NCBI GenBank assembly: GCA_016928525.1
Contig: JAFGKO010000314.1
Coordinates: 1 to 8,652 of the forward strand
Source: Anaerolineales bacterium
Lineage (GTDB): Bacteria > Chloroflexota > Anaerolineae > Anaerolineales > Villigracilaceae
DNA length: 8,652 nucleotides
Direction: 5' to 3'
The notes under the pieces are model-generated. The model was not told the DNA's origin. It was given only the letters and a program-made list of their open reading frames with translations, and did not search any database. A program made the position numbers and the translations under genes. Positions within the stretch are counted from its first letter, which is position 1; each line of letters opens with the position of its first letter. Shown piece by piece: positions 1 through 8,036 of this stretch.

Positions 1-999
1 GCAATTGTGTACGGAAAATATGGGTTGCCAGATGTGCTTGAACTCAAGGATATAGAAAATCCCACTCCTCTCGACGATGAAGTTTTGGTAGAAGTTCATG
101 CGGCTTCCGTCAATGCGTATGATTGGCACTTCCTGACAGCAGACGTATTCCTAATCCGTTTGATGGGCGGCGGGTTGCTCAGACCGAAAAAGAAGACTCT
201 TGGAGCTGACATTGCTGGGAGGGTTGTTGCTGTCGGTAAAAACATCACCCGATTTCATCTAGGCGATGAAGTGTTCGGGAAGGCAAAAGGTGGCAGTGGC
301 GGTTTTGCTGAATATGTTTGTGCGCCTGAAAAGTCTCTAGAATTGAAACCAACGAATGTTTCTTTTGAGGAAGCGTCGACGGCCTCAATGGCAGCATTGA
401 CTGCGCTTCAGGGACTTCGTGACGAAGGACAAATTCAATCAGGTAACAAGGTTTTGATTCATGGCGCATCGGGGGGCGTAGGTACATTTGCCGTCCAAAT
501 TGCCAAATCATTCGAAGCAGAAGTGACTGCTGTATGTAGTTCAAGGAATGTGGACATAGCACGCTCAATTGGGGCTAACCATGTAATCGACTACACCCAT
601 GAAGACTTTACCCTAAATGGGGAGCTTTACGACCTGATTCTGGTTGCAAACGGAAATCGTTCGATTGATGAGTACAAGCAAGCATTAAAGCCAAACGGTA
701 TTTGTGTTTTGGCTGGTGGTGGAGGCGGTTCTATCCTCGAACTCATTGTAGGCATGTTCCAAGAGTGGTGGATTTCAAAAACCGAGAACAAGAAAATCGG
801 CTCCTTTCTTGCAAATATCAATCAAAAAGATTTAGCGTTTATGAAAGAACTTCTTGCATCTGGCAAAGTAAAGCCAGTCATCGATCGGTGCTATCCGTTG
901 CGTGACACAGCAGAAGCCCTTCGCTATATTGGCGCAGGACATGCCCAAGGAAAAATCGTTATAACTATGGAGCATGCCAGCAAAACCTACCCACGCTAA
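1..999 (+). CDS. MDR-family NAD(P)-dependent oxidoreductase (quinone oxidoreductase/alcohol dehydrogenase-like), 5' partial
   Basis: Probable cytoplasmic NAD(P)H-dependent reductase of the zinc-independent medium-chain dehydrogenase/reductase superfamily. The substrate cannot be read from the sequence. The frame is open from base 1 (Ala-Ile-Val-Tyr-Gly), matching the usual MKAIVY-type N-terminus, so only a few residues are missing at the window edge. GTG at 7 is therefore probably internal. 332 codons are visible, close to the full family length. The N-terminal GroES-like domain shows PDVLEL, ASVNAYDWH and GADIAGRVVAVG. The Rossmann nucleotide-binding loop HGASGGVG is at about 460-483, followed by FAVQIAK. 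No structural-zinc Cys cluster is seen, which fits the quinone-oxidoreductase branch. The C-terminus runs about ten residues past the usual GKIVIT end. The next gene begins 28 bases downstream on the same strand, suggesting an operon with the selenoprotein. Confidence 0.9.
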   Translation, partial: AIVYGKYGLPDVLELKDIENPTPLDDEVLVEVHAASVNAYDWHFLTADVFLIRLMGGGLLRPKKKTLGADIAGRVVAVGKNITRFHLGDEVFGKAKGGSGGFAEYVCAPEKSLELKPTNVSFEEASTASMAALTALQGLRDEGQIQSGNKVLIHGASGGVGTFAVQIAKSFEAEVTAVCSSRNVDIARSIGANHVIDYTHEDFTLNGELYDLILVANGNRSIDEYKQALKPNGICVLAGGGGGSILELIVGMFQEWWISKTENKKIGSFLANINQKDLAFMKELLASGKVKPVIDRCYPLRDTAEALRYIGAGHAQGKIVITMEHASKTYPR

Positions 1000-1027: not shown

Positions 1028-1921
1028 ATGGAAACACAACTTCAATACCAAGTAGATTCGTACCGCTTTCTGGACCGTGCGGTCAAAAAAATGGTGCGCT
1101 CGTGGATCAGAAGGGATACGCCGCGTGAGATTCCCTGGACGCCTTTGAAAAAATCATTGTCAGAAAGCACGGTGGCACTGGTCAGTTCTGCTGGGCTGGC
1201 CCTGAAAACAGATCAGCCTTTTGATCAGGAAGGCGAAAGGCGAAATCCCTGGTGGGGTGATCCGTCGTTCAGGGTGATACCACGTACGGCGAATGCAGAT
1301 GAATTGGAACTCTATCACCTGCATGTTGATCCCAGTCTCGTAGACCAGGATATCAACACCTTCTTCCCTTTGCAGCGGTTGCTAGAGCTTGAACAGCGCG
1401 GCGAAATTGGACGGTCGGCTGCAAATCATTACTCTTATATGGGGTACATTCTCCAGCCGCGGGAACTGTTGGAAAATAGTGTGCCGAACATGATCCAGCA
1501 CATGCAACAGGATGGCGTAGATGTTGCCCTGCTTGTACCCGTCTGACCGGTCTGCTGCTGGTCCGTAGGACTGGTTCAAAGAGCAATCGAAGCATCAGGG
1601 ATAAGCACCATCACGCTCTCCAGCATTCCCGACCTGATGCATGCCGTCAGTGTGCCGCGCCTGGCAGCCATCGAATATCCGCTGGGGTTTGTGCTGGGGC
1701 AACCAGGGGATCGGGATGGACAACTGGACGTTTTGCGTTCGACGCTCGCAGCGCTGGTTGAGATGACCTGGCCGGGCGAGGTCGCGCATCTTCCTTATGA
1801 GTGGCCTGCTTCCGCGCGAAGACTGAATGCCAATCCCCCTGTTCCACCACCAATAGGGAAGTATTTGCTAAAACACCCGTGGCAGATTCCGAATCTTCTC
1901 TCACGAAAGATTCCTGGATAA
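1028..1921 (+). CDS. GrdB/PrdB-like selenoprotein (glycine/sarcosine/betaine/D-proline reductase selenoprotein B family) with in-frame UGA (Sec)
   Basis: Probable cytoplasmic thiol/selenol redox protein of the GrdB/PrdB family; the substrate is unknown. The N-terminal part ends in ...VDVALLVPV just before TGA (1544-1546). The same frame continues without a stop to TAA at 1919-1921, giving PVCCWSVGLVQRAIEASGIS and then the family C-terminal half with PLGFVLGQPGD. The TGA falls on the first position of the UxxC motif, as known for GrdB and PrdB, so residue 173 of 297 is read as selenocysteine, with Cys176 and Cys177 following. A SECIS-like hairpin lies 18 nt downstream. I chose ATG 1028 because an AAAAGGAT sequence sits upstream and the ATG at 974 lies inside the previous gene. 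Starting at 974 would add 18 residues. At about 297 aa it is shorter than GrdB and closer to PrdB in type. The alternative is a nonsense pseudogene. No sel genes or GrdA/E partners are in the window. Confidence 0.82.
1547..1581 (+). promoter_or_regulatory. Candidate bacterial SECIS element directly downstream of the UGA codon
   Basis: Bases 1558-1564 (CTGGTCC) pair with 1568-1574 (GGACTGG) as a 7-bp stem with two G-U pairs, closing a three-base GTA loop at 1565-1567. The loop starts 18 nt after the UGA and its first base is G. This fits the published general model for bacterial SECIS elements: a small hairpin inside the coding region, a G among the first two loop bases, and a loop about 16-37 nt after the UGA. 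The stem also has to encode Cys-Trp-Ser-Val-Gly-Leu-Val. The fold was made by eye, without energy calculation. Confidence 0.6.
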
Positions 1922-4021: not shown

Positions 4022-4065
4022 CCCCCGATTTGTTACGCTCCGCGAGCCCTATTCCCGTCGGGGCC
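4022..4065. other. Dyad-symmetric, tRNA-3'-end-like sequence at the recombinase 3' end; candidate attachment site
   Basis: CCCCGA (4023-4028) is the reverse complement of TCGGGG (4058-4063). Nested inside are GCTC (4037-4040) and GAGC (4044-4047). The two dyads have nearly the same centre, about 4042-4043, giving an imperfect palindrome of about 41 bp, the general form of serine-recombinase att sites. ATTCCCGTCGGGGCC (4051-4065) also reads like the T-arm and acceptor 3' strand of a tRNA. The rest of a tRNA is absent: no GGCCCCG 5' acceptor strand is found upstream. The stretch overlaps the last codons of the recombinase gene, giving its SGPDGNRARGA tail. Confidence 0.35.
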
Positions 4066-5604
4066 GCTGTTACTACTCTCTTGACAGAGAGTTCTCAATA
4101 CAGGCAGAAACGCAAAAGAAGGCTGCAGGGCCACAATTGCGGTTTCTCGCACAAAGATTGCTTCGATCGTGAGTCGGAGCAATCTTTTTTGTTCGATTGT
4201 CGTCACCTTGCTCCAGTTGGCTAACGCCGGCTGGAGTTTTTTGATGAGCGGTAGTGTAGCAGTGAAATTGAGTTCTTGCAAGGGTTGGACGAGATTTTCA
4301 ACCCTTTCTTTCTCACGCTCTACCACATCCTTCGTGACTTCGCCTCGGATGTAAAGCTCCTGCGCTCTTTGAAGCTGCGCTTCTGCTTCTTCCACACTCA
4401 AGGCGACAGCATCCGGGTTCACAGATTTTTCCCAGCGTCGAATAGCTTTCAACAGCAAACCAGCCACTTCCTTCTCCAAAGGGATCGCCTTTGGGCTGGG
4501 CTGCGAGCACATATCTCTGCGTTCGATCCGACCCGAATCTTTGTAAACGTGCGTGTTCCTCGGGTTCTGCGTCGAACCACGCATTGGGTATCCGCAGTTA
4601 CCGCAGAAGATCCTGCCGGTCAGCGGATAAATGCGCTGAGGTGTGCTGCCTCTCATCAAAGCGATCCCGGCAATCGCCCTGCGGATTTCCTGTGTCTCCT
4701 GGAAGACATCCTCAGAGATCAAGGCCGGGTGTCTCCCTGGATAGAGCGCCTGCAACCAGCGCGGCTTAGCATTGCCAAAGTAAGGGACCTTACCGGTGTA
4801 GAACACCTGGTTCAAGATACCGCGCACGAAATCTTTTGTGAAAGGACCAGGTTCCTTACGACCGCGGATACTTCTCTGCCGGTACGGCTGCTCGGTTCCA
4901 TCCGGTCCGATGAAGGTGGTCTGATTGAGCTGCTCGGCGATCACCACATCGTTCGGCGTATCGTTCATGTACAGGGCGAACGCCATCTGGACCGCCTTGC
5001 TATCAATGGGATGTGGCACCAGGATCTTCCCATCGCTCTTGTCAGGCTTGCCTACATCCGGACAGTAGCCTGGACCATTTGGATCGTCGTACCTGGAACA
5101 TTGCCCGCGGCAATACCCAAGCGGGATATTCCCGTTCCAGAAGCCATCCTTTGCCCGCTGGAGCTTGCCCTTGCGGGTTTCCTGGCGGAGATTGTCGATG
5201 TAGATCTCGGCCAACATTCCCAGCATGGTCAGGGTTAGCTTACCCCAGGGGGTGGTAAAGTCAAGCCGCTCCTGAACCGAGACGAAGGTCACTTTGCGGT
5301 TGTTCAACTGGTCCAGGGCGTTGAGCAACCCACTCAGGTGACGGTAGAAGCGGCCGATCTTGTCCACCACGACAACATCGAACTTGCCTTCCCTGGCATC
5401 TTCCATCAACCGGATCAGTTCAGGTCTTTGGCTATCCTTCTTGGCCAAGATGCCGGCATCTGTGTAGATGTGGACCAGTTTCCAGTCTCGCTCAGATGCA
5501 TACTTGCGGATGTTGTTTTCCTGGGCATCCAGGCTGAAACCATCCACCTGCTCTCGCATCGACACGCGCCGATAGCCGACAGCGCGCATTGAAAATGTTG
5601 TCAT
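4033..5604 (-). CDS. Large serine recombinase (resolvase/invertase N-terminal, recombinase and zinc-ribbon domains)
   Basis: Site-specific DNA recombinase that would cut and rejoin DNA through a phosphoserine link to move an element. At 523 aa it has the full large-serine-recombinase layout. The catalytic domain is about 1-140, with YRRVS and nucleophile Ser15, Arg13, Asp49 and Arg60. VVVDKIGRFYRH at 78-89 carries Arg85 and Arg88. The long helix E runs into a Cys-bearing linker (Cys165, Cys169, Cys181). The recombinase domain is about 195-325, with PGRHPALIS at 289-297. The zinc ribbon has FCGNCGYPM (Cys334, Cys337) and Cys366. A charged coiled-coil segment spans about 400-445. Gly84 stands where the family has Asp (D67 of Tn3/gamma-delta resolvase), so activity is uncertain. 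ATG 5604 is preceded by AAAGGAGA (5613-5620 on the minus strand). The C-terminal tail is encoded by an att-like sequence. It is divergent from the XRE fragment. Confidence 0.92.
   Translation of the reverse strand: MTTFSMRAVGYRRVSMREQVDGFSLDAQENNIRKYASERDWKLVHIYTDAGILAKKDSQRPELIRLMEDAREGKFDVVVVDKIGRFYRHLSGLLNALDQLNNRKVTFVSVQERLDFTTPWGKLTLTMLGMLAEIYIDNLRQETRKGKLQRAKDGFWNGNIPLGYCRGQCSRYDDPNGPGYCPDVGKPDKSDGKILVPHPIDSKAVQMAFALYMNDTPNDVVIAEQLNQTTFIGPDGTEQPYRQRSIRGRKEPGPFTKDFVRGILNQVFYTGKVPYFGNAKPRWLQALYPGRHPALISEDVFQETQEIRRAIAGIALMRGSTPQRIYPLTGRIFCGNCGYPMRGSTQNPRNTHVYKDSGRIERRDMCSQPSPKAIPLEKEVAGLLLKAIRRWEKSVNPDAVALSVEEAEAQLQRAQELYIRGEVTKDVVEREKERVENLVQPLQELNFTATLPLIKKLQPALANWSKVTTIEQKRLLRLTIEAIFVRETAIVALQPSFAFLPVLRTLCQESSNSGPDGNRARGA
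4153..4190 (+). terminator. Terminator-like inverted repeat with T-run, inside the recombinase 3' coding region
   Basis: AAAGATTGCT (4153-4162) is the perfect reverse complement of AGCAATCTTT (4178-4187). Pairing continues inward with T-G, C-G, G-C, A-T and T-G, giving about 15 pairs around a five-base loop (4168-4172). Six Ts (4185-4190) end the plus-strand copy, as in a Rho-independent terminator. It would stop plus-strand transcription from the GNAT side running antisense into the recombinase gene. It encodes recombinase residues about 473-484 on the other strand, so it may also be chance. Confidence 0.4.
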
Positions 5605-5673: not shown

Positions 5674-5820
5674 ATGTCAGAATCGATGGGCAAACGAGTT
5701 AATTATGCCCGCAGGCAGAAGGTTGATCTGTTTGCATTCGCCGAAAGGATCAATGAATTGCTGGCCGAAAGGAACCTGTCGATGCGTGCTGCTGCGCTGA
5801 ACGCCGGGCTCGATCACTAG
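5674..5820 (+). pseudogene. Truncated XRE-type helix-turn-helix regulator (N-terminal 48 residues)
   Basis: Probably the start of a small DNA-binding repressor that once controlled the neighbouring recombinase region. ATG 5674 has a strong AAGGAG site. The product, MSESMGKRVN...FAERINELLAERNLSMRAAALNAGLDH, contains the first helices of an XRE/Cro-type HTH and then stops at TAG 5818-5820. Intact proteins of this type continue through the recognition helix for tens more residues. Reading past the TAG gives Ala-Val-Arg, which resembles the expected Gln-Ala-Val-Arg continuation. I therefore infer a CAG-to-TAG change next to a rearrangement breakpoint at about 5829. Beyond that the DNA belongs to the second recombinase on the other strand. 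It is divergent from the intact recombinase gene. Confidence 0.6.
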
Positions 5821-5821
5821 G

Positions 5822-6846
5822 CCGTTCGGGTTGAATTTCGATCATCCGGCGCGTGTTGATCCGCCTCCACTTCCTGACTCTTTTTTCTGGATTCTCGGGG
5901 TCATCTTCCATGTCCAACTCAGGGCGCTCATAGCAAGCCACCAGACCGGCGAAGAAGGGATTCTCCATAATGGCCCGGATGCTCTCGCAAGAGAACATAG
6001 ATTCGGGGTTGCTGGCGGTTTGTCCCTTGGTTTTGAAGCGGATCATCTGTCCATCCGGTAGGGTGAAGTCGTTTGAATTCAACCAATCAGCAATCTCCCG
6101 ATAGCTGTGCCCTTGCAGGTACAGGCGAAGATCAGGGGAATAGCATGTTTTGTAACTGGATGTGGAACAGCCACGCGTCCACGCTGGCTTTCAGTACGAT
6201 CCTTTCGCCCGAACATTGGACAGTACCCTTCGCCGTGGACGTCATTGCAGGTCGCGCACAGCCCATTGCAATATCCCAGGGGGATATATCCATTGGGCAA
6301 GCCGCTGCGCGCCCGGTGCACTTTGGCTTAGCGAGTGCGTTCACTGGTCTGGTGAACGTAGGTTTCCGCCATCATCCCCAGCATGACCAGCATGAAGCGT
6401 CCCATGATGTTGTCCGTATCGGTCTGCTCGGTGACGCTTACCAGGCGCACCCGGTATCGTTTGAGAAAACGCACAAACTTAAGCAAGGATTCCAGATTGC
6501 GGTACAAACGGTCCAAACGATGGACTACCACGATCTGAACCCGGCCAGCACGGATATCTTTCATCATGCGCTGTAGTTCCTTTCGCCGGCTGTTGCGGCC
6601 GGTCCGATCCGGATCGCTATATACTTCGATCTTTGCGGCGCCGTGCGAGCGGGCGTATTCCTCAGCCCGGTCAGGCTGGATCTCCAGCGAGTAGCCATGA
6701 TGGTTTGGATCCACGCGTGACAGGCGTGAGTAGACTGCCCAGGTTGCGTTGTCAGTTTCGTCGTTCAGGTAACTGTATTCCCTGCTGATGAACAGATCCA
6801 ACTCATTCAGCGAAGTGGGCATGGTGTGATTAGTGGTTGGCTGCAT
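5822..6846 (-). pseudogene. Second large serine recombinase, decayed: in-frame stop, 1-nt deletion, 3' truncation
   Basis: ATG 6846 follows AGGAGGAAGG on the minus strand (6852-6861) and opens a catalytic domain. It has VYSRLS with Ser43 as nucleophile, then SLEIQPDRAEEYA, the intact HRLDRLYRN active-site segment and MLGMMAETYVHQ. TAA at 6328-6330 replaces a codon that aligns with a Lys of the first recombinase (ETRKGKLQRAK versus ERTR-stop-AKVHRAR). The same frame then continues through NGYIPLGYCNGLC and GYCPMFGRKD. At 6124-6127 one base is missing: restoring it gives IFALYLQGHSYREIADWLN, matching MAFALYMNDT of the first copy. A third segment runs to IEIQPER at about 5829, where the recombinase domain is cut before the PGRHPALIS equivalent. 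The zinc ribbon is absent. As it stands the gene yields a 172-aa catalytic domain without a DNA-binding region. Confidence 0.85.
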
Positions 6847-6976
6847 TGTGACCTTCCTCCTGTTGTTTGGATTTCTGTTTACTTCGATGGCTCTCGCGTT
6901 CTTTGTCCAGGCGGCGTAAGATAGCCGCGACAAGGCGGGCAAACTCATCGATCCGTTCGTCAGCTGCGTATGTCAA
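6830..6976 (-). CDS. Small TTG-initiated protein overlapping the start of the second recombinase
   Basis: Unrecognised 48-residue product, too short for most gene callers. TTG 6976 has AAAGGAG a few bases upstream (minus strand, about 6984-6990). The frame reads TYAADERIDEFARLVAAILRR, then a Lys/Arg/Gln/Glu-rich tail ending GHNAANH, with TAA at 6830-6832. It looks like one amphipathic helix followed by a charged tail. The stop lies 17 bases inside the second recombinase gene, and that gene's RBS is within this frame, so the two would be translationally coupled. A possible -10 (GATAAT) lies at 6997-7002 on the minus strand. I cannot assign a function. A recombination accessory or regulatory peptide is only a guess from position. 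Confidence 0.55.
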   Translation of the reverse strand: MTYAADERIDEFARLVAAILRRLDKERESHRSKQKSKQQEEGHNAANH

Positions 6977-7374: not shown

Positions 7375-7407
7375 TGATATACTTACACTGTAATTACATT
7401 TATGGAG
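7375..7407 (+). promoter_or_regulatory. Toxin-antitoxin leader: extended -10, overlapping palindromes (candidate operator), RBS
   Basis: TGATATACT at 7375-7383 is an extended -10 (TGn plus TATACT); no good -35 is seen. TTACA-C-TGTAA (7383-7393) is a perfect 11-bp inverted repeat. TGTAATTACA (7389-7398) is a perfect 10-bp palindrome sharing the TGTAA half-site. This gives three alternating half-sites across the likely transcription start. GGAG at 7404-7407 lies six bases before ATG 7414. The arrangement suits autorepression by the antitoxin, which is usual for type II systems. Confidence 0.5.
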
Positions 7408-7413
7408 AAAATT

Positions 7414-7656
7414 ATGCTCAGAAAAATATTCAAAACAGGCAATAGTATTGTAGTATCCATCCCCAAAGATATCCTGGAACAACTTGAATTATCGGAAGGT
7501 GAGGATGTCTCTGTAGAACTGGATCGCGAACAGCGTCAGATCGTTATCTCCCCTGTTGAAAAGCCCCTTGCTGTTAGTGTGAACGAAGAATTTACCAGAC
7601 AGATCAACGATTTCATCGAAGAATACCGACCAGCGATGGAAGCCCTGGCAAAGTAA
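7414..7656 (+). CDS. AbrB/MazE/SpoVT-family antitoxin
   Basis: Antitoxin and autorepressor of the two-gene type II system. At 80 aa it has the swapped-hairpin AbrB/MazE DNA-binding domain at about 1-47 (MLRKIFKTGNSIVVSIPKDI, then LELSEGEDVSVELD). A C-terminal tail of about 30 residues (VNEEFTRQINDFIEEYRPAMEALAK) probably wraps the toxin. I prefer ATG 7414 to ATG 7402 because GGAG (7404-7407) is correctly spaced for 7414 and falls inside the longer reading. Its stop codon overlaps the toxin start by one base (TAATG), so the two are translationally coupled. Confidence 0.88.
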   Translation: MLRKIFKTGNSIVVSIPKDILEQLELSEGEDVSVELDREQRQIVISPVEKPLAVSVNEEFTRQINDFIEEYRPAMEALAK

Positions 7657-8036
7657 TGGTTTATCTGACGGCCGAACAGGTTCTTTTCATCCACTATCGC
7701 CTTATCAGTGAAACAGGTGGTGAGCATGGCATTCGCGATGTTGGATTACTCGAATCGGCTGTCGCACGGCCTAAAGCTACCTTTGATGATAAGGAGTTGC
7801 ACACGGACATCTTTGTAAAAGCAGCCGCGTTGATGGAATCCCTGGTCAACAATCATCCATTTATGGATGGCAACAAACGCACCGGGATTGCTTGTGCCGT
7901 ACTCTTTTTGAAGCAAAATGGCGTGACCTTTACCGCACAAAATTCAGAACTGGAAAAGTTTACACTGCAAGTTGCAAAATCCGAATTGGATACAGGGGGA
8001 ATAGCTGAATGGTTCAAAGATCACTGCAACACCTAA
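7656..8036 (+). CDS. doc: Death-on-curing (Doc/Fic-fold) toxin of a type II toxin-antitoxin system
   Basis: Growth-inhibiting toxin of the Doc branch of the Fic superfamily. The well-studied P1 Doc phosphorylates elongation factor EF-Tu and halts translation; the same reaction is inferred here, not shown. At 126 aa it has the usual Doc length. The complete Fic-type motif HPFMDGNKRTG spans residues 67-77, with His67, Asp71, Asn73, Lys74 and Arg75. The N-terminus (YLTAEQVLFIHYRLISETGG) and GIRDVGLLESAVARP are typical Doc landmarks. All key residues appear intact, so the toxin should be active. The start ATG overlaps the antitoxin stop. Confidence 0.92.
   Translation: MVYLTAEQVLFIHYRLISETGGEHGIRDVGLLESAVARPKATFDDKELHTDIFVKAAALMESLVNNHPFMDGNKRTGIACAVLFLKQNGVTFTAQNSELEKFTLQVAKSELDTGGIAEWFKDHCNT

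Follow-up and report, generated by a model that had tools for sequence, protein, structure and literature searches.

Selenoproteins of the PrdB family with a UxxC motif were reported as abundant in the Sargasso Sea metagenome in 2005 (42 sequences; PMC1088965), and in the GOS study of 2008 the PrdB family, filed under pfam07355, comprised 235 Sec and 110 Cys forms (PMC2398784). PrdB selenoproteins are also listed in two reviews (PMC13188914 and PMC9312934), 'proline reductase' selenoproteins are listed for Anaeromyxobacter and Geobacter (PMC1794560), and a paper on monofluoroacetate dehalorespiration (PMC10838667) came up for GrdB-like proteins. The word 'PrdA' does not occur in PMC2398784, PMC13188914 and PMC9312934. 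Among open-licence PMC papers, we found none on PrdB with Chloroflexi, on PrdB-like proteins or on proline reductase with Anaerolineae, and none treating the U-P-x-C clade described below. The metagenomic PrdB sets (Sargasso Sea and GOS) resemble the protein studied here in family name, UxxC motif and richness in Sec, a likeness drawn from their description and not from their sequences. PrdB selenoproteins with UxxC and their Sec decoding are already known, and what is added here is evidence that the family name misfits one clade.

The window, i.e. the whole stretch of 8,652 nucleotides of an Anaerolineales bacterium (contig JAFGKO010000314.1) analysed here, contains a frame that runs from ATG 1028 for 172 residues ending in LLVPV, meets an in-frame TGA at 1544-1546 and continues with PVCCWSVGLV to a TAA at 1919-1921 (Table 1). 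The read-through translation gives the motif U173-P-V-C176. The initial annotation had described this arrangement, with VPV before and PVCC after the TGA, as is directly visible in the sequence. The mechanically called ORF begins further upstream at ATG 974. The start at ATG 1028 is more likely, because this is where the listed proteins P0003 (which belongs to the window itself), P0006 and P0009 start; P0007 begins at an upstream ATG. In profile searches, the read-through protein matched TIGR04483 (PrdB) with an E-value of 1.2e-47 and 162.4 bits, and the parts before the TGA (given from ATG 974) and after it matched the same profile separately with E-values of 2e-24 and 2.2e-16, respectively, which is well outside what chance would give and indicates one family and one gene. 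The score against Pfam GRDB (PF07355) was 28.5 bits, above the gathering score of 22. An AlphaFold2 model of the read-through protein, with Cys standing for Sec, had a mean pLDDT of 96.2 and a pTM of 0.94, and no match in a PDB fold search with this model reached an E-value of 0.001.

Table 1. Features located in the window.
Feature	Position	Strand	Basis or remark
MDR-type zinc-binding dehydrogenase gene, cut at window start	1..999	+	Pfam ADH_N, ADH_zinc_N
Whole predicted selenoprotein gene, 297 residues with Sec173 (UPVC), TAA stop	1028..1921	+	Family match, relatives, AlphaFold2
TGA codon predicted to be read as selenocysteine	1544..1546	+	TGA at the aligned codon in 67/69 relatives
Cys176 codon, second residue of UxxC	1553..1555	+	Cys in 64/65 compared sequences
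SECIS-like hairpin with apical loop GUA (1565-1567) on a stem of 1558-1564 paired with 1568-1574	1558..1574	+	11 nt after TGA
Large serine recombinase gene, intact	4033-5604	-	Resolvase, Recombinase and zinc-ribbon domains
Three successive ORFs (6328-6948, 6079-6321, 5750-6082)	5750-6948	-	By eye like another recombinase gene, broken into pieces
MazE-type antitoxin gene overlapping a Fic/Doc-family gene by one base	7402-8036	+	Pfam

The protein search yielded 2413 proteins out of 5960 candidates. Among the best 120 of them, 116, including the window's own fragment, had as their last residue the one aligned immediately ahead of the TGA, a count that concerns protein records only. The four longer proteins carried Gly (P0002, P0004 and P0005) or Cys (P0008) at the site. 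To this was added an alignment scan of genomes, which gave 69 loci and is biased by its use of the motifs E[RK]xNPWWGD and AxxHYS[YF]MGY; two earlier scans for loci with a single sequence returned no relatives, and the alignment scan of viral contigs gave no loci. The aligned codon was TGA in 67 of the 69 genome loci, GGG in one (L017, whose codon at 6400 lies in the gene of P0005) and TGC in one (L061), a distant locus in which the second Cys was also absent. Homologues with U or Cys at residue 173, which the initial annotation had named as support, are thus the rule in this set, which includes some near copies (L036/L037 and L060/L062/L063) and two loci from one genome (L001 and L019). An ordinary residue at this position, which had been named as counter-evidence, was absent from most close relatives and present in a minority, as Gly in P0002, P0004 and P0005 (L017) and as Ser in L122. 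The TGA loci span several phyla, Chloroflexota included, and comprise copies in Pseudalkalibacillus or Alkalihalobacillus (L047, L048, L051, L053, L054, L057 and L058). Their frame was open for 101-740 codons before the TGA and 59-131 codons after it, the shortest running into the end of a contig; that no other in-frame stops were counted in these genes is a consequence of the way the frames were delimited and carries no weight.

The coding sequence is under purifying selection before as well as after the TGA. Between the window and L001, dN/dS values were 0.245/2.0 before and 0.192/2.1 after the TGA, with dS saturated as in the other pairs with the window. The corresponding values were 0.215/0.929 and 0.156/0.743 for the pair L001-L023, and 0.057/0.733 and 0.031/0.511 for L004-L009. 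A second set consisted of 199 genomes from the class to which the Anaerolineales MAG G002 belongs, and contained matches in 26 genomes (22 at E < 1e-40 and four weak). The 30 loci taken from this set included three genes already in the first set (L093, L094 and L096), two GrdB-like ones (L115 and L116) and two that gave no alignment (L117 and L118); the 28 alignable loci had 27 TGA and one TCC (Ser, L122) at the site. After the TGA, the GrdB-like L115 and L116 continue with G-T-G and apparently have Gly where UxxC normally has its second Cys. A protein alignment was made of the window and 55 of the 69 loci. In a tree that omitted L030, L052 and L059 and whose root was placed for drawing only, the window grouped with L001, L002 and L023 (MAGs of Chloroflexota, Anaerolineales in two cases) with support of 100/99. 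The selenoprotein was 66.8% identical to that of L002.

Downstream of the TGA, the 17-nt sequence CUGGUCC-GUA-GGACUGG can form a hairpin. The bacterial SECIS model, as given in section 5 of PMC13188914, requires a loop of 3-9 nt with a G among its first two positions, a stem of 4-16 bp, a TGA-to-loop distance of 16-37 nt and an MFE of -7.5 or lower. The window hairpin agrees with all of these rules, having a 3-nt loop beginning with G-U, a stem of 7-8 bp, a TGA-to-loop distance of 18 nt and an MFE of -13.8 kcal/mol for the 42 nt folded. It resembles the fdhF SECIS of E. coli K-12 in the 11-nt spacing from the TGA, the 17-nt length and the G-U in the apical loop, but differs from it in sequence and in having a 3-nt loop. 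The folding energy was only mildly unusual (z = -1.76, with 13 of 200 shuffles equally good) and is weak evidence alone, the evolutionary evidence being the stronger.

This evidence came from codon counts in the window and 30 of the 69 loci (L001-L016, L018-L030 and L033), which make up the nearest clade once the Gly form is set aside. The stem codons were frozen, with TGC for Cys177 in 28/28, TCC for Ser179 in 29/31, GGA for Gly181 in 31/31 and CTG for Leu182 in 29/31 sequences, whereas the loop codon of Val180 varied freely in the same 31 sequences; GGA accounts for 15.5% of the Gly codons elsewhere in these genes. Codon entropy was 0-0.41 in the stem, whereas the lowest value was 0.59 among the 67 conserved degenerate columns used for comparison, all of which lie beyond residues 173-190, so that the non-stem columns of that segment did not enter. 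In an alignment of 36 sequences, made up of the window and 35 of the 67 TGA loci, 97.6% of the cells were paired against at most 66% in slid controls, a value that is favourable by choice as the rows were picked for a common hairpin register. Three of the seven pairs were altered on both sides in this alignment, i.e. by compensatory changes. The remaining 32 of the 67 TGA loci had no hairpin in the window's register, and many of them showed other hairpins in single-sequence folds.

The machinery for Sec was searched for in 49 genomes of relatives, of which 47 had a TGA locus and one each the Gly and the Cys form, and in a control set of 14 well-known genomes. Matches over the cut-off were found for selA in 47/49 genomes of relatives versus 1/14 controls (missing in G018 and G038), for selB in 46/49 versus 2/14 (missing in G010, G022 and G029) and for tRNA-Sec in 44/49 versus 5/14 (missing in G004, G007, G013, G021 and G049). 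As five controls exceeded it, the tRNA-Sec cut-off of 47 bits is not strict alone; 43 of the 44 scored at least 55 bits. Each of the 49 genomes had at least two of the three components over the cut-off. With a full SelB query, a 42-residue piece (76% identity) was detected in G022, which carries a close relative of the gene with selB below the cut-off, as well as a 118-residue piece (58%) in G029 and a 36% match only in G010. For selD, 12 of the 14 Chloroflexota genomes tried had matches over the cut-off versus 2/14 controls, the match in G002 covering half of the model. One in-frame TGA lay inside selD in ten of these twelve matches (G001, G003, G004, G007, G009, G011, G012, G013, G020 and G022), which suggests that SelD itself may contain Sec in these genomes.

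In the class of G002, selA was over the cut-off in 167 of the 199 genomes, and a Sec-decoding host is therefore the default there. All 22 genomes with a strong match to the gene (E < 1e-40) carried selA, an association that is weak evidence because selA is so common in the class anyway. In the window itself, neither Rfam at its gathering thresholds nor a search for tRNAs gave any match, and 8.6 kb need not contain selC; from its relatives, the host would be expected to possess the Sec machinery.

On the sequence evidence, the TGA at 1544-1546 is almost certainly a Sec codon, and the proposal of the initial annotation that Sec occupies the UxxC site of a GrdB/PrdB-family protein gains support from the conservation of the TGA, the SECIS-like hairpin and the Sec machinery of the relatives. 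Three other readings of the codon had to be weighed. Single-base errors make TGA from TGC, TGT or TGG, and if a Cys or Trp codon had been turned into TGA by nonsense mutation or by faulty sequencing, the gene here would be broken or mis-assembled; but the TGA recurs in 67 of the 69 records, which come from several phyla, selection downstream of it is purifying and the hairpin is kept at the synonymous level, findings that refute an error for the family and make it extremely unlikely in the window. Gly at the site in a few relatives could point to a host that reads TGA as an ordinary amino acid, e.g. Trp or Gly (NCBI tables 4 and 25). Such recoding is hardly credible, as translation of the other window genes with the standard code yields complete Pfam domains, 22 of the 69 related genes end in TGA and the nearest relatives are Chloroflexota with selA. 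The possibility that the TGA is a true stop separating two proteins, with the second from ATG 1637, fits the presence of the first piece alone in 116 of the best 120 listed relatives. The conserved PVCCWSVGL (1547-1573) however precedes the earliest start in that frame, ATG 1637, and would never be translated, and the joined chain folds into one confident model; we regard two proteins as very improbable.

As for the surroundings of the gene, the MDR dehydrogenase gene ends 28 nt upstream of it, and co-transcription of the two is possible. An MDR dehydrogenase gene is also next upstream in L002 (6875-7870), with 82.8% identity over 326 residues. Upstream of the gene, the three nearest relatives (L001, L002 and L023) share a small ORF of 115-140 aa, of which the L001 copy had no Pfam match, and also a LuxR regulator resembling MalT. 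Across clades, no neighbouring family was widely common, the largest groups reaching 9-10 of 70 regions with ORFs of our own calling (at least 80 aa), and ten selected neighbours out of the 807 ORFs belonged to mixed families. The Bacillaceae loci have neighbours in common among themselves. Elsewhere in the window, the MazE-type and Fic/Doc genes likely constitute a toxin-antitoxin pair, and the Fic gene gave weak PADLOC matches.

We then considered whether the protein is a true PrdB, i.e. the subunit of D-proline reductase that opens D-proline together with the pyruvoyl subunit PrdA. TIGR04483 is its best family and several of the listed relatives are named PrdB by a source. PrdB, as defined by the TIGR04483 equivalog, and the window protein are homologous over most of their length, have a Sec codon at the aligned site and have H97, D108, H134, R185, E188 and R211 in common. 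The reference consisted of four PrdB genes (L083-L086) that share a stretch of DNA with PrdA and came from a search of the class of G035. Their pieces of 210-217 residues scored 351.6-398.5 bits against TIGR04483, over the curated cut-off of 300 bits, whereas the window protein stayed far below it, as did the clade members L001 (154 bits), L047 (162 bits) and L036 (139 bits). All four reference proteins have U-G-T-C where the window protein has U-P-V-C, and Gly at 99 and 140 and Ala at 171 where it has His99, Tyr140 and Pro171. Resemblance to GrdB (PF07355) of glycine/sarcosine/betaine reductase lies in UxxC at the aligned site and in a score above the Pfam gathering threshold, and the differences are that the GrdB profiles are 431-435 positions long and that the one GrdB compared has U-G-T-C.

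PrdA over the cut-off was found in none of the 49 genomes of relatives, G035 having sub-threshold matches only, while a positive control in the class of G035 detected it in 4 of 59 genomes at 860-1009 bits. GrdE (PF09338) exceeded its cut-off in one of the 49 (G035, Halanaerobiales), and neither PrdA nor GrdE was present among the window genes scanned with Pfam. In the tree, the clade, including the Cys form, was set apart from PrdB with support of 98/82, the PrdB and GrdB branches being long. A true PrdB is consequently an unlikely identity for the window protein. Of the earlier assignment as GrdB/PrdB-like, the membership in the broad family holds, through the PF07355 and TIGR04483 matches, but the protein is not a typical PrdB, and the 'D-proline reductase' label is probably wrong for it and for the clade. 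The TIGR04483 score, the U-P-V-C motif, the scarcity of GrdE and lack of PrdA over the cut-off in the 49 genomes of relatives, the tree and the lack of a widely common neighbour led us to infer a stand-alone selenol oxidoreductase rather than a proline reductase.

The clade is mostly U-P-x-C and is found in Chloroflexota and several other phyla. Pro followed U in 65/65 sequences of the first set, and Cys176 was present in all of these except L021, which has U-P-I-W-C. Leaving the GrdB-like loci aside, the second set had 25 loci with TGA, of which 20 had U-P (one as U-P-I-W-C), four had U-G-L-C (L100, L105, L106 and L107) and one had U-L-V-C (L104). U-P-x-C is accordingly a looser mark of the clade than first supposed, since it holds for 65/65 in the first set and 20/25 in the second. 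The U-G-L-C and U-L-V-C loci perhaps represent a sister subfamily.

We propose that, when the ribosome reaches the TGA, SelB with Sec-tRNA(Sec) would bind the hairpin at 1558-1574, and Sec would be inserted instead of termination, yielding a 297-residue protein with the redox motif Sec173-Pro-Val-Cys176. The Sec selenolate would attack the substrate, Cys176 would resolve the intermediate by forming a selenylsulfide, and the enzyme would be recycled by thioredoxin or by thiols of the cell. The explanation as a whole, comprising the Sec codon, hairpin-directed insertion and a PrdB-like UPVC protein that is most likely a stand-alone oxidoreductase, is given a probability of about 0.93.

In a few paralogues, Sec is replaced not by Cys but by Gly (P0002, P0004 and P0005, the last being L017) or by Ser (L122), and some paralogues therefore do without the Sec site. 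In the tree L017 is nested among Sec-bearing members of the clade, which marks its Gly as derived. Gly and Ser are each one base away from TGA; the present codons are GGG in L017 and TCC in L122, in what are few cases. In L017 the hairpin lacks its closing pair, wobbles replace two of the Watson-Crick pairs and a different best fold is predicted. We had considered the hairpin to be cleanly gone in the Gly form, but dropped this view as six of the seven positions in L017 can still pair through G-U wobbles. In the Ser form L122, three of the seven pairs remain. The fold of the Sec-less paralogues may thus keep a second role that is independent of Sec, as these replacements suggest.

Most of the relatives in the databases are cut at the Sec codon, the front piece being all that is recorded for 116 of the best 120 listed. 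As D-proline reductase, a common label, is very likely wrong for the clade, taking it as a sign of proline (Stickland) fermentation would lead metabolic reconstructions astray. We lean, with some reserve, towards regarding the clade as a distinct and widespread selenoenzyme family that has gone under the name of D-proline reductase PrdB but would act without a pyruvoyl subunit, and in which the losses of Sec to Gly or Ser in some Chloroflexota paralogues, together with erosion of the SECIS element, suggest a second, Sec-independent role.
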